Part shown: piece by piece, positions 8,208 through 16,401 of the stretch | How the letters are laid out: every line of letters begins with the position of its first letter | Position numbering within the stretch: position 1 is the first letter of the stretch | Assembly (NCBI GenBank): GCA_920105625.2 | Contig: OV050030.1 | Span: forward strand, 80,441,400-80,505,399 | Source of the DNA: Clusia tigrina | Taxonomy: Eukaryota > Arthropoda > Insecta > Diptera > Clusiidae | Length of the DNA stretch: 64,000 bases | Reading direction: 5' to 3' | Made by a program: the position numbers and the translations under genes | Notes under the pieces: model-generated | What the model was told of the DNA's origin: nothing | The model's database searches: none | Seen by the model: only the letters and a program-made list of their open reading frames with translations

Positions 8208-8235
8208 CACTGTGTCACGAGGCTGGCCAAAAATG
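8208..8235 (+). repeat. Transib 5' terminus: heptamer, 12-nt spacer, nonamer
   Basis: The sequence has CACTGTG at 8208-8214, a 12-nt spacer at 8215-8226 and CCAAAAATG at 8227-8235. Compared with the recombination signal nonamer ACAAAAACC, six of nine positions agree. The flank on the left is the target duplication CGATG. Confidence 0.8.
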
Positions 8236-8721
8236 GTTAAAGTCAATGTTAGAATTTGAACGTTTTTTTTCATTTTTTTTTAACACTCTGGTTAGATGAT
8301 ATCTAAAATATCTTCTTAAAATGTTTACAAATTTTAAAGTTATAGGGGTTCAAAGTCAAGGTTTGTGTTCAGCATACGAAATTTATGGGAAAATCCCAAA
8401 TTCATTTCATTTATAATACTAAGAATTTAAGTATTTGAATGTAACGGCTACCAAAATTTGTAACAGGGTTGTAAGTGATGCTTTTAGTTATAATTACAAC
8501 ACTGTTTTTGTTTACAAATATTGATCATATGTTAGATACCGTTCGAAATGAGGCATTGTCAAGACTTTTCAGCAACCGTGAACTTTCGTAGAGAATTTAA
8601 AAGAAAGTAGCAATAACACTTTTCCTGTTTTTTTGTATTTTGGAGCTACAAGTATGTGTTTTAATATATTTAAAGTTCAGCTGCCCGATATTGCCCGAAT
8701 TCTTTTTGTGATTGTTTTTTA

Positions 8722-10665
8722 GTGTCGACCTCGTTGCGGATTCGTAGTATTTTTCAACTGTGGCTAGAGATAAAGGAAAACAGACCCTGCGATGTTATGC
8801 ATCATGTTAAAGATTTTTTAGAAAATCATTTTGAACGAGTGTTATTAGAAAGGGAACAACAGAAAATAAGGCTTACTCTTTTAAAATTTTCAAACAATTG
8901 GTCTAAATATCATCGCATGAGAGATAGATTTGAAACTGAGTTGAGTGACTGGCTAGATAGCGATTTATTTGGTGAATTCATTTGTAATGTAAGTTTCCGT
9001 ATAAAGTTCTGGTTTTGCAATAAAACTAAATTGTGTTATACTATATTAGGAAGCAAATACAAGTGGTAGAAGCCGACCGAATGTTTCTTATGAGGAGGGT
9101 TCAATGAGAACAAAAAGGAGGCGAGTGGAAGAACTTGTCGCTTCTACTTCATCTGAAGCTCTTAAAAAAAGCCGCAGAAAGGGTTGAAAGTGCTCTAGCA
9201 TTATACATTGATATGGATTTATCTATGAGGGAGTACAATATGATGAGAAAATTAGTAAATTCTGTTCACGAAAATTGCTTTCCGTCATATTATATGATTG
9301 CAGATGCTAAAAAAAAGATTTTGCCTGATGACATACAAGTAACAGAAACTTCTGCAGAGGTCCCCTTACAAAAGATTTTAGACAAAACTGTAAGAAGCAT
9401 TTTAGATGTTCATGATATTGATAACGAAAATGATATAGTTCTGGAATGCAAGTGGGGATTTGACGGCAGTAGTGGTCATAGTGTATACAAACAAAAATTT
9501 TAGAATGAGGAAGGTAGTGATGAATTTATGTTTGTTACTTCTTTCGTTCCTTTACGCTTGTTGGATTGGGCAGATGATCAAGTAGTTTGGGAAAATGATA
9601 AGCATTCGTCTTGGAGGTTATGTAGACCACTTAAAATTATTTTTAGAAAGGAGAATCCAAATGTAATACAATCAGTAAGGGATAGCATAAATTCAGAAAT
9701 TGAAGGTCTAGATACATATAATTACATTTCAAAAAACAAAAATCTTAATGTTGATTATAAAATGCAATTGACGAAGATAGATGGTGCAGTTTTAAATGTA
9801 TTAAGTGGAAACAGTAGTAGTTCAACTTGTGCTTTATGTCGAGCTAAGCCATCTGAAATGAACAGCTTATCGATTTTCGAAAGGCCTGTGAATGAGCAGT
9901 GCTATCAGTATGGATTGTCGACATTACATGTATGGATCAAATGTTTTGAATGCATTTTGCATATTTCTTACAAACAGCATATAAAGAAATGGAAAGTGGT
10001 AGGAAAAGAAAATAAAGATCAGGTTGCTGAGCAAAAGAGAAATATTCAAACAAAATTTAAGTCTGAAATGGGTCTTATAGCTGATAAGGTTAAGACGGGG
10101 TATGGCACAACAAATGATGGCAATACTGCAAGGCGCTTCTTTTCTAATGTGGAACTTTCAGCTCAGATTACTAATGTTGATGTAAGGTTAATAAAAAATG
10201 TTTCCATTATTTTAAGAACACTTTCAAGTATATCAAGTTTTGAAAAGCTTTTAAAAGATACTGCACTTTTATATTTCAAATTATATTCTTGGTACTATAT
10301 GCCTTCAACTGTGCACAAAATTTTAGTTCATGGTATAGATTTTATTATTTATTAAATATTCTACAACTCCCATTGGAATGTTATCAGAAGCAAGCAATAG
10401 AATCAAGTCATAAAATTATAAGAAATGCAAGATTAAGACATAAAGAAGAAAAATAAGTAGGAATGCCTCCATGAGAGACCTCATAAATTCTCTTATTCTG
10501 CAGTCAGAGTCATCAATTTCGATGCGTAGGCAGAAAATACTTTTAAGAAAAAGTGATTTAAATGATCTGAAAGAGTATTTAGTTGAAAAAAAAGTATTTA
10601 ACGACATAAAAACAGCTAATGAATCATTGGTAGAATCTGAAAGTGATTACAGTGATAATTGTTAA
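8722..10665 (+). pseudogene. Transib (RAG1-related) transposase, degenerate
   Basis: Transib transposase would cut and paste the element using a DDE active site like that of RAG1. Pieces are read at 8722-8990, 9135-9503, 9528-10355 and 10471-10665. The part at 9448-9500 has KWGFDGSSGHS, the family motif holding the first catalytic Asp. The next pieces contain MFVTSFVPLRL, a KIDGAVLNVLSG motif, a CXXC zinc pair (CALCRAKPSEMN), GNTARRFF and SWYYMPSTVHKILVHG. A GT-AG interval at 8989-9051 looks like an intron. Damage includes an in-frame TAG at 9501-9503, a frame change at the A-run near 9168, and several frame changes after 10350, where the region with the last catalytic residue is scrambled. 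The start is uncertain. Confidence 0.8.
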
Positions 10666-10925
10666 TATACTTTGATTGCCTGTAATACTTATATATATAT
10701 ATGTTATGTTAAATAAATAAAATTTATGTTTCTAAATTTATTTTTTACTGAGCGGCAAAAACTTACGTACTAAATTAATTTTTGTAAAATTTTGCTCTTA
10801 TCTAATCGATAGTTTCTAAATTATGACAATTTTTAAATTTAGGTTGTATGGGAGGTGGGCGTGGCGCTTGTCCGATTTTCTTGAAAATTGGAAATATGTT
10901 ACAATATTACTAAATATATTCACAT

Positions 10926-11108
10926 TGTGGTAGGAACAAAACAATGTTTAATGTATTTTATTTATTCAATCGCATGTACACGTCTGCACGGTAGAACGCT
11001 TAAATTCAACTGTTCGTGCAGTTACTGCCACAGCGATATCTAACAATATTCACAATAATAAAGTTATGTATATATATAAGTGTAGATTATTACAGCAGTG
11101 CTGCCACA
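10926..11108 (-). repeat. Gypsy1 3' LTR
   Basis: This 183-bp LTR has terminal inverted bases TGTGG/CCACA. It pairs with 15867-16049 and differs from it at about two sites (T/C in the 'cacgtctg-acgg' stretch and T/G near the TATATA run). Confidence 0.93.
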
Positions 11109-11155
11109 ACTCGGCCGTCCTGACCTGTAACCGTCCCGGTTATCTTTGAACATTA

Positions 11156-14222: not shown

Positions 14223-15796
14223 TTAACATCTTTGTTTAATTTTATTTTTAAAAAAATCTGGATCGAACATTTGTCGGATGAAGCTAATGGGACTCCCCGT
14301 ATCTATCAGGCATTCTAATAAAGTTTTATAATTACTACTCAATAAACAAAAACTAATATACATTTTCCTTACAAATTCTTCGCCATGTTCGTCTTGCACA
14401 TTGTGAACCAAGTTCTTCTTCTTGTACTTCGGACATTCAGCAGCGTAGTGCCCAAACTCACCGCATGCGTGGCAGGCACCAACTTCTCTTTTTGGTTTAC
14501 GGCATTCTGACGCAATGTGTCCCACTGAATTGCAGTTGTAGCAGCGATTTTTCCGCTCAGCAGTGTCATTGTTTCCTCCTACAGTTGTTGGCTTTGGCAA
14601 AGAAACATCTACGAACGCTTCCAACAGCTGATTTTCATGATGAAAACGATGCATCTTCGCCTGTGACCGTAGCTGCCGATTTGGTATACCTTCGATTATG
14701 TATTCTACTAATTCCTCGCTCCCAAAATCGATTTTATTCGCCAGTATGAGTTTGTCGTGAAAGTAGTTTTGGAAATGTTCACTTGGTAACCACTTACGTG
14801 CTTCAAACTCTCGACGAATGGTTAGTTTGCTGATGCGGTTGTCGAACAAAAATTTCATCTCAGCGAGTAGGTCAAGAATTGGAATTGTTGCGACGTCTGC
14901 TCTTGAATGCAGCCACTTAAGAGCTTTTCCTTTTAATTTCGTTGCAATCAACGCACGTAAATTGTTGTCGTCTAAGTTGAAGGTTTTTTAGCACTTAGTA
15001 GTTGAGATTCCCATAGTTGAAAGTGGTCTACCTCTCCTGAGTATTCCGAAATTAAATCCTTCACCATTGACATTTTATTTATAAATGTCTCGTCCGGCGT
15101 TTCTTTTGTCGTTTTTACGCACTCATTTGATACAACCGCAACTTCATTATATTTTGATTTCTGCTTTTCATTTGTTGTTTTCTGGCACTCATTTGACAGT
15201 TCATTGTTTTTGTCTGTACATTCGTTTGCTATTTCATTGTTCTTTTCATATATTTTCCCACACTCTTTTGACTTTTCGTTGCTGCTGGTTTTCTTCAATC
15301 GCTCGTTTGACGTTTCATTTTTTTTAGCTTGTTGCAGACACTCTTTTTCTCTTTCTAGCACTTCTATTTCTCTACGTTGCAATTCCATTTCTTTTCTCAT
15401 CAATTCTATCTCTTTTTGCATCAGGTTGAATTCGTTTGTTTTGTTGTTAGATTTCTGTTCATCTTGATTTGCGTACGTGACTTGCGTGACTGCGTTGTCG
15501 TTTTCGTCACCGCTTTCGCCGTCGGCGTCTTGCGCACTTTTGCTGTTGTTGCCGGCCGTTTCCTCGGCGTCGCTGTGCTCGCTTGCTGCTGCGTCTGTTT
15601 CTTCAGGCGTTTGATTTGAACTTCCAGAAACTGCTTCAGCCGTTGGCCTTGGACACTTTTCGCGTCTTTCGTGTGGAATAGCTTCCAAGCGTAGTATTAG
15701 GGCTGATTTATTCCCGTTTGACTTCTCGCCCAGAACATCTAGCCATGCTTTTAGCTGCGCCAAAGTGTAGCGATTAAGGTCTTCAGCACCCGGCAT
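14223..15796 (-). pseudogene. Gypsy1 gag plus start of protease, one-base frameshift
   Basis: This gag is read as 15796-14972 (274 residues: SAP-like motif, acidic and coiled-coil region) and then 14951-14223 (242 residues: capsid C-terminal part, CCHC knuckles CYNCNSVGHIASEC and CHACGEFGHYAAEC, protease LIDTGSP). One base is missing in a T-run near 14985 compared with copy 1, which truncates the protein after AKKPST. Copy 1 has an intact reading frame at this place but a 17-bp deletion elsewhere, so the two copies decayed independently after the duplication. Confidence 0.88.
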
Positions 15797-15866
15797 ATCG
15801 TTTTGCTCACTTATTGTTTGTCACTTTTTAATTTAATTTAATTTTAGCTCAATCCCACTTCTGAAT

Positions 15867-16049
15867 TGTGGTAGGAACAAAACAATGTTTAATGTATTTT
15901 ATTTATTCAATCGCATGTACACGTCTGTACGGTAGAACGCTTAAATTCAACTGTTCGTGCAGTTACTGCCACAGCGATATCTAACAATATTCACAATAAT
16001 AAAGGTATGTATATATATAAGTGTAGATTATTACAGCAGTGCTGCCACA
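15867..16049 (-). repeat. Gypsy1 5' LTR
   Basis: This 183-bp LTR is flanked on its right by the target duplication ACAT (16050-16053). Directly inside it on the minus strand is ATTCAGAAGTGGGATT, which is the expected place of the primer binding site; I could not assign its tRNA. Confidence 0.92.
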
Positions 16050-16362
16050 ACATGCAAAATTTCAATCTTATCGGATTGCTAATTTCCAAATTATTACAAT
16101 TTTTAAATTTAGGTTGTATGGGAGGTGGGCGTGGCCTTTGAGATAATTTCATAGAATTTAACAAAGTTATCAGGAATATATCAGAGACCAATCGAGCTAA
16201 GTTTGGTTCAATTCTAGAAACAATTTTGGAAAATATAAGGTTTTTTCATTTCAGGATATATGGGCGTGTCCTTGGGCCGATTTTCTCTAAACTTCGGTTT
16301 TTTTCTTTCCTACTTATAAAAGCAATGTGTACTAATTTTCATTCTTTTATGAAAACTCCTTC

Positions 16363-16401
16363 TATTTTTGGCCACCGTTTATATGAAAACACGACACTGT
16401 G
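16363..16401 (-). repeat. Transib 3' terminus: heptamer, 23-nt spacer, nonamer
   Basis: Read inward on the minus strand, the terminus has CACAGTG (16401-16395), a 23-nt spacer (16394-16372) and CCAAAAATA (16371-16363). The heptamer equals the consensus V(D)J heptamer. The CGATG target duplication follows at 16402-16406. Confidence 0.8.

Follow-up and report, generated by a model that had tools for sequence, protein, structure and literature searches.

A Transib family with 12- and 23-bp end spacers in the fly Clusia tigrina and its bearing on the 12/23 rule

Did the 12/23 rule of V(D)J recombination come with a transposon, or did it arise with RAG2? The question is raised by a Transib insertion in the genome of the fly Clusia tigrina, Transib transposons being relatives of the element that was likely ancestral to the antibody-shuffling enzyme. 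We analysed a window of 64,000 nucleotides (assembly GCA_920105625.2, contig OV050030.1, positions 80,441,400 to 80,505,399, forward strand), in which a first-pass annotation had likened the two ends of this insertion to a pair of V(D)J recombination signal sequences (RSSs). The preferred reading, in which we have good confidence, is that the element is a defective Transib from a family that is near-constantly 12/23 in the copies read, and that its transposase likely reads a heptamer and an A-rich box at each end.

Ends of the Transib insertion

We found that the Transib insertion spans positions 8208-16401, as established by the layouts of its ends, a CGATG duplication, an empty site and a transposase match. 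Reading the sequence directly, the 5' terminal signal consists of CACTGTG, a 12-bp spacer and the A-rich box CCAAAAATG (8208..8235, plus strand), and the 3' terminal signal of CACAGTG, a 23-bp spacer and CCAAAAATA (16363..16401, minus strand), both exactly where the first-pass annotation had placed them. Target-site duplications of CGATG lie on the left (8203..8207) and, again by direct reading, on the right (16402..16406), neither with a strand, and sequence comparison places the empty target site, with a single CGATG (26861..26865), in another copy of the retroelement that hosts the insertion. Without a nested long terminal repeat (LTR) element and one copy of ACAT, the insertion measures approximately 3,066 bp. 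Of the features that define the Transib superfamily, a homologous transposase, a 5-bp CG-rich duplication and a CAC heptamer at the ends are present, with changed heptamers in some genome copies of this family (family 1), and the distances from heptamer to A-rich box in the family are 12 and 23 bp within a tolerance of 1 bp.

The first-pass annotation had also reported the 3' end a second time at 3180-3142. This end (3142..3180, minus strand) does read CACAGTG, 23 bp and CCAAAAATA, as at 16401-16363, but it is not independent, since its flank and its nested LTR element are shared with the end at 16401; it duplicates the 3' end of that one insertion, and we rejected it as a second end. The array in which it lies is one insertion, tandemly duplicated, with three 5' ends and with three 3' termini spaced 13,248 and 13,221 bp apart. 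The composite of host retroelement, Transib and nested LTR element recurs in tandem approximately every 13.2 kb (positions 1-16490 of the window; C1:80423964-80457800).

Next, we considered whether the 12/23 reading could be a coincidence imposed by eye on unremarkable terminal inverted repeats (TIRs), as may be suspected from the window nonamers, which agree with the vertebrate nonamer at 6/9 positions, with another 6/9 match at spacer 10 in the 3' end. We used a box-free test in which the inner part of one end was slid along the other and the best offset was scored, with no nonamer assumed, and applied it also to other Transib families of the same genome, described below under letters. The best inner offset was 11 in families 1 and E and 9 in family B, and it was 0 in families A, C, D, F and J, in family C by a narrow margin (a score of 11 vs 10 for two other offsets). 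Because the box-free offsets are 11, 11 and 9, the difference between the ends of families 1, E and B is real regardless of where the boxes are delimited. Furthermore, the window ends have the 11-mer TGGCCAAAAAT in common at positions differing by 11, a shared 11-mer being found in just 10 of 5000 simulated random end pairs, and the spacers are near-constant across the family. We therefore regard chance as highly improbable; it is refuted for the offset, the naming of the boxes after the RSS being a matter of choice.

Spacer lengths across family 1

A search of the 1.21-Gb genome listed the exact 12-spaced 5' pattern 40 times and a reversed control 0 times; the genome searches scored the best candidates only (best 40 of 44 and best 40 of 47), and such counts are lower bounds. 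Family 1 accounts for 38 of the 40 listed matches, and the remaining two (C2:120388443 and C2:120671314) were rejected as another 12-spaced Transib, as they are one duplicated non-Transib locus. Since a pattern search itself fixes the spacer length, the 5' ends were searched again by similarity over 250 bp, which listed 41 ends, 34 of them with the exact pattern. The other seven were read individually, and six had a spacer of 12 bp with changed boxes, giving 12 bp in 40/41 listed ends; the seventh (L079, C269:190256) has the sole 13-bp 5' spacer among them. Four of the 38 pattern matches are missing from the similarity list, namely three variant-subfamily copies and C4:132315283.

At the 3' side the spacer is 23 bp in all 35 family 1 ends read, which comprise 17 ends from 20 loci, 8 from 13 loci, 8 further family 1 ends and 2 in the window. 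Two of these ends (L020 and L028) have a changed heptamer that the script pattern missed, and their spacers were measured by eye; a place in L092 was rejected from the count, as this copy has a truncated 3' end and the place is not an end. The spacer conservation that the first-pass annotation had put forward as a check is thus borne out on both sides. Its proposal of 12/23 as a left/right property stands in that the layout is near-fixed in the family; it does not stand as new, because 12/23 Transib ends are already published, and family 1 adds to a known type. Passages of PMC8355894 give such ends, from Kapitonov and Jurka 2005, for Transib5 of D. melanogaster and for Transib2, N1, N2 and N3 of A. 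gambiae, and base a hypothesis on 12/23-ended Transibs.

Exact 5-bp duplications flank 18/25 copies with both ends (11/17 and 7/8), 12 of the 18 being CGNCG. The 25 two-ended copies represent 21 distinct insertion sites, with flanks common to L013 and the window copy, to L010 and L011, to L015, L016 and L017, and to L028 and L032; flank sharing was established partly by flank BLAST and partly by comparing 12-letter flanks by eye. Among 81 termini (six internal-repeat matches having been excluded, and four positions extrapolated from partial matches), neighbours facing each other at up to 15 kb formed 32 pairs, all of them 5'/3' and one with the truncated 3' end of L092; at this limit 8/41 5' ends were partnerless. 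Two candidates for like-ended arrangements were rejected: L025/L026, apparently a facing 12/12 pair, arose by inverted duplication of a single truncated copy, and a double 5' end in C444 is a local tandem duplication. A search of viral contigs for further Transib loci gave 39 pattern stretches, none of them a relative.

The transposase and the other Transib families of the genome

In the window copy, a TAG at 9501-9503 interrupts the transposase frame (9108..10355, plus strand), and the third catalytic region falls in another frame further downstream. The copy's 283-amino-acid (aa) frame at 9504-10355 matches structure 6pqn (E=1.1e-63), an entry labelled DNA-mediated transposase, which we take to be HzTransib of Helicoverpa zea. 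The sister entries 6PQX, 6PQY and 6PR5 are listed as Transib in passages of PMC11844651. At E<=0.001 the window transposase has 871 protein relatives, 120 of which were listed, and among those bearing names the best matches are insect proteins. Both D regions of the DDE triad are present in the window copy, with the E region in the other frame, and several sister copies appear from their sequences to have all three catalytic regions. Upstream, an open frame homologous in sister copies to residues 1-78 of P0012 probably constitutes the first exon coding for the transposase and its N-terminal region (8740..8988, plus strand), the borders having been set by eye from GT..AG. It is followed by a segment resembling a nonamer-binding domain (NBD), with GRSRPN (9051..9187, plus strand) where several sister copies have GRGRPN/K. 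N-terminal to the core, 84/120 listed relatives have a GRP segment with basic residues after it, and passages of PMC9435367 describe a GRP-containing counterpart of the NBD in Transibs. A Pfam scan of three element frames and one host frame gave no kelch or RAG2 match, no RAG2-query search having been made. The LTR element is nested in the 3' part of the Transib (10926..16049, no strand) between ACAT duplications at 10922-10925 and 16050-16053, and its terminal repeats (10924-11110 and 15865-16051) are each 99% identical to one common reference copy. The window copy is most likely dead, because of the TAG at 9501-9503 and the third catalytic region being in another frame.

Other repeats were observed in and around the element. 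The Transib 3' part has an 83-bp subterminal repeat (10783-10865 and 16053-16135, 87% alike), and 38-bp tandem repeats lie within the host retroelement copies (5147-5341 and 23794-23988). In the Pfam scan, a host frame on the minus strand (7086-8279) matched zinc-knuckle and aspartyl-protease domains, and a large inverted repeat (35738-37506 / 50685-52453) has arms 97% complementary and 13.2 kb apart.

A protein search of the genome gave 90 matches, with 83 of 2736 candidates being scored. Dozens of uninterrupted Transib frames were seen, e.g. at C1:78531314 and C4:190704111, many of equal length (714 aa or 669 aa), and this recurrence suggests that several families have been active recently. 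In the families with asymmetric ends, the long end is found 3' of the transposase. Family E at C1:49812207 (559-aa frame) is 12/23 with a duplication agreeing at 4/5 positions, four further family E 3' ends have a spacer of 23, and over 240 bp its 3' region shares 85-86% identity with that of family 1; in another family E copy (C1:406804156) the 5' end is 12-spaced, and approximately 2 kb of downstream sequence gave no 3' end. Family B (669 aa) has its box at 14 and 23 in three copies, with duplications CGCTG, CGTTG and CATTG. In L577, two copies (duplications CGTCG and CGACG) show an unambiguous spacer of 23 at the 3' end, and the 5' spacer of 12 is tentative, with a box of 5/9. The L577 3' end in L067/L068 has TGGCCAAAAATAGAAGGA in common with family 1, the compared protein parts being 42% identical, which may reflect conservation or an exchange of ends.

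The window itself contains a second Transib (39136-46987), divergent and degraded, with 32% identity in the region compared. Its 3' end has CACAGTG, a 23-bp spacer and CCAAAATTA (39136..39174, plus strand), a second copy (L063) also having 23, and its transposase pieces (39424..46987, minus strand) run at 46987-46106 and 39867-39424, 6 kb apart with other DNA between; a 5' end was found neither in the window nor in L063.

Symmetric ends characterise five families. Family A, with many 714-aa frames, was read in two copies (duplications CGTCG and CGCCG); family C (CGCCG) has AAAATGGAGATTAATT at the same place in both ends; family D has the duplication CAGCG; F and H are one family (CACTT), probably the same duplicated insertion; and in family J (CTCCG) both ends have an A-rich box at 23. 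Upon building a tree (21 rows, 163 columns), a single clade of family 1, P0001, P0002, L577 and B was rejected (p 0.000145), a grouping that omits relatives with unknown ends, and when only families of known end state were included a single origin of asymmetry was not rejected (p 0.112). Overall, 12/23, 14/23 and symmetric Transib families coexist in one genome, which we report as new; a literature search over listings and text passages gave no such one-genome set.

Pairing, descent and the origin of the end difference

How might such ends work? In the preferred reading, the CAC heptamer would be the likely cleavage site, held by the catalytic core, and the NBD-like GRP segment would hold the CCAAAAAT box as the probable second contact. 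On the 3' side the A-rich box would lie approximately one helical turn further in, and the 11-bp difference would keep it on the same helix face and distinguish left ends from right ends. Both the long and the short type may derive from one ancestral end via a single one-turn insertion or deletion. That such an event converted one end type into the other is suggested by family E, because its ends share the outer CACAGTGTCGTG and the inner GGCGGCCAAAAAT and agree except in a middle block of 2 bp (5') vs 13 bp (3'). Family E, with near-identical ends and the 11-bp difference in mid-spacer, shows how a short/long pair could plausibly have arisen.

Several observations weigh against the preferred reading. 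The window copy is broken by a stop, a frame change and the nested LTR element, and the contact between the GRP segment and the A-rich box is one that we infer, with no GRP match in 36/120 listed relatives. Across family 1, 7/25 two-ended copies have no exact 5-bp duplication, and a facing limit of 100 kb adds one 5'/5' pair, 18.6 kb apart, which goes back to the inverted duplication of a single truncated copy. Among the other families, the 9-bp offset of family B (14/23) is no clean helical turn, and in L577 the offset 11 scores just 9 of 18 vs 8 for offset 13. Moreover, because HzTransib is described as symmetric and the five same-genome families are so, asymmetry is not needed for Transib generally.

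The family 1 copies are approximately 84-99% identical to the window copy over the compared stretches, for which reason their constant spacers may reflect plain descent. The asymmetry would then have been fixed by ancestry alone, an ancestral end indel having been carried along by an enzyme that tolerates any spacer, and to this we give a little under an even chance. The shared ancestry of the copies, the many symmetric families in the same genome (e.g. A, and J with its box at 23 on both ends), the one 5' end of 13 and the 14/23 of family B all fit such tolerance, as does a proposal in passages of PMC7204232 that TIR asymmetry has comparatively little effect on the RAG-like (RAGL) complexes of invertebrates, which are distinct from Transib. 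Descent fits less well with a long end of 23 located 3' of the transposase in four divergent families (1, L577, B and the second Transib of the window), which are 32-42% identical over approximately 150-160 residues compared, or with spacer changes in just 1/41 listed 5' ends and 0/35 3' ends read.

A true pairing rule, in which the transposase, like RAG, would bring a short end into synapsis with a long one, is in our estimate unlikely, at about one chance in four. The 32/32 facing pairs and the constant polarity argue for it, and so does amphioxus ProtoRAG, which in passages of PMC8289069 reportedly prefers its asymmetric 27/31 pair; however, like-ended elements would seldom be generated, and their absence is weak evidence. 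The same source describes the ends of HzTransib, and of most Transib families, as symmetric, and passages of PMC8355894 report that mouse RAG1 without RAG2 shows no preference for 12/23 over 12/12; Transib likewise lacks RAG2. Given the shared ancestry, the five symmetric families (J with 23 at both ends) and the 14/23 of family B, a pairing rule is not demonstrable from sequence.

Comparison with known systems places family 1 within a varied group, passages of PMC9435367 describing Subgroup II Transibs with both symmetric and asymmetric ends. Like Transib5 and the Anopheles Transib2, N1, N2 and N3, family 1 has an RSS-like heptamer and an A-rich box at spacings of approximately 12 and 23, but it is a separate family in a separate genome, the ends being compared through published description in passages. 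It shares a homologous transposase with HzTransib and differs in being asymmetric. With the vertebrate 12RSS/23RSS and RAG1/RAG2 it has in common the CAC heptamer, the A-rich box, spacers of 12 and 23 and a 5-bp GC-rich insertion target, whereas the scanned frames gave no RAG2 match in Pfam, the box agrees at 6/9 with the nonamer consensus, and each element has one fixed pair. ProtoRAG is likewise asymmetric with a CAC heptamer and 5-bp duplications, but passages of PMC8289069 and PMC9435367 give it a spacing of 27/31 and a RAG2-like protein (RAG2L).

The widest interpretation is that Transib enzymes obey 12/23 as a functional rule for their left and right ends, one older than RAG2, with the downstream end held at 23 in several deep lineages, the upstream end made approximately one turn shorter by a single ancestral indel, and the V(D)J rule inherited; we consider this improbable, with somewhat less than one chance in five. 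The genome is a natural comparison in which to ask it, as 12/23, 14/23 and symmetric families occur together, several with uninterrupted frames including E (12/23) and B (14/23), and because related asymmetric families have such frames the pairing rule becomes testable. If the interpretation were true, the V(D)J 12/23 rule would have been inherited from a transposon rather than invented with RAG2.

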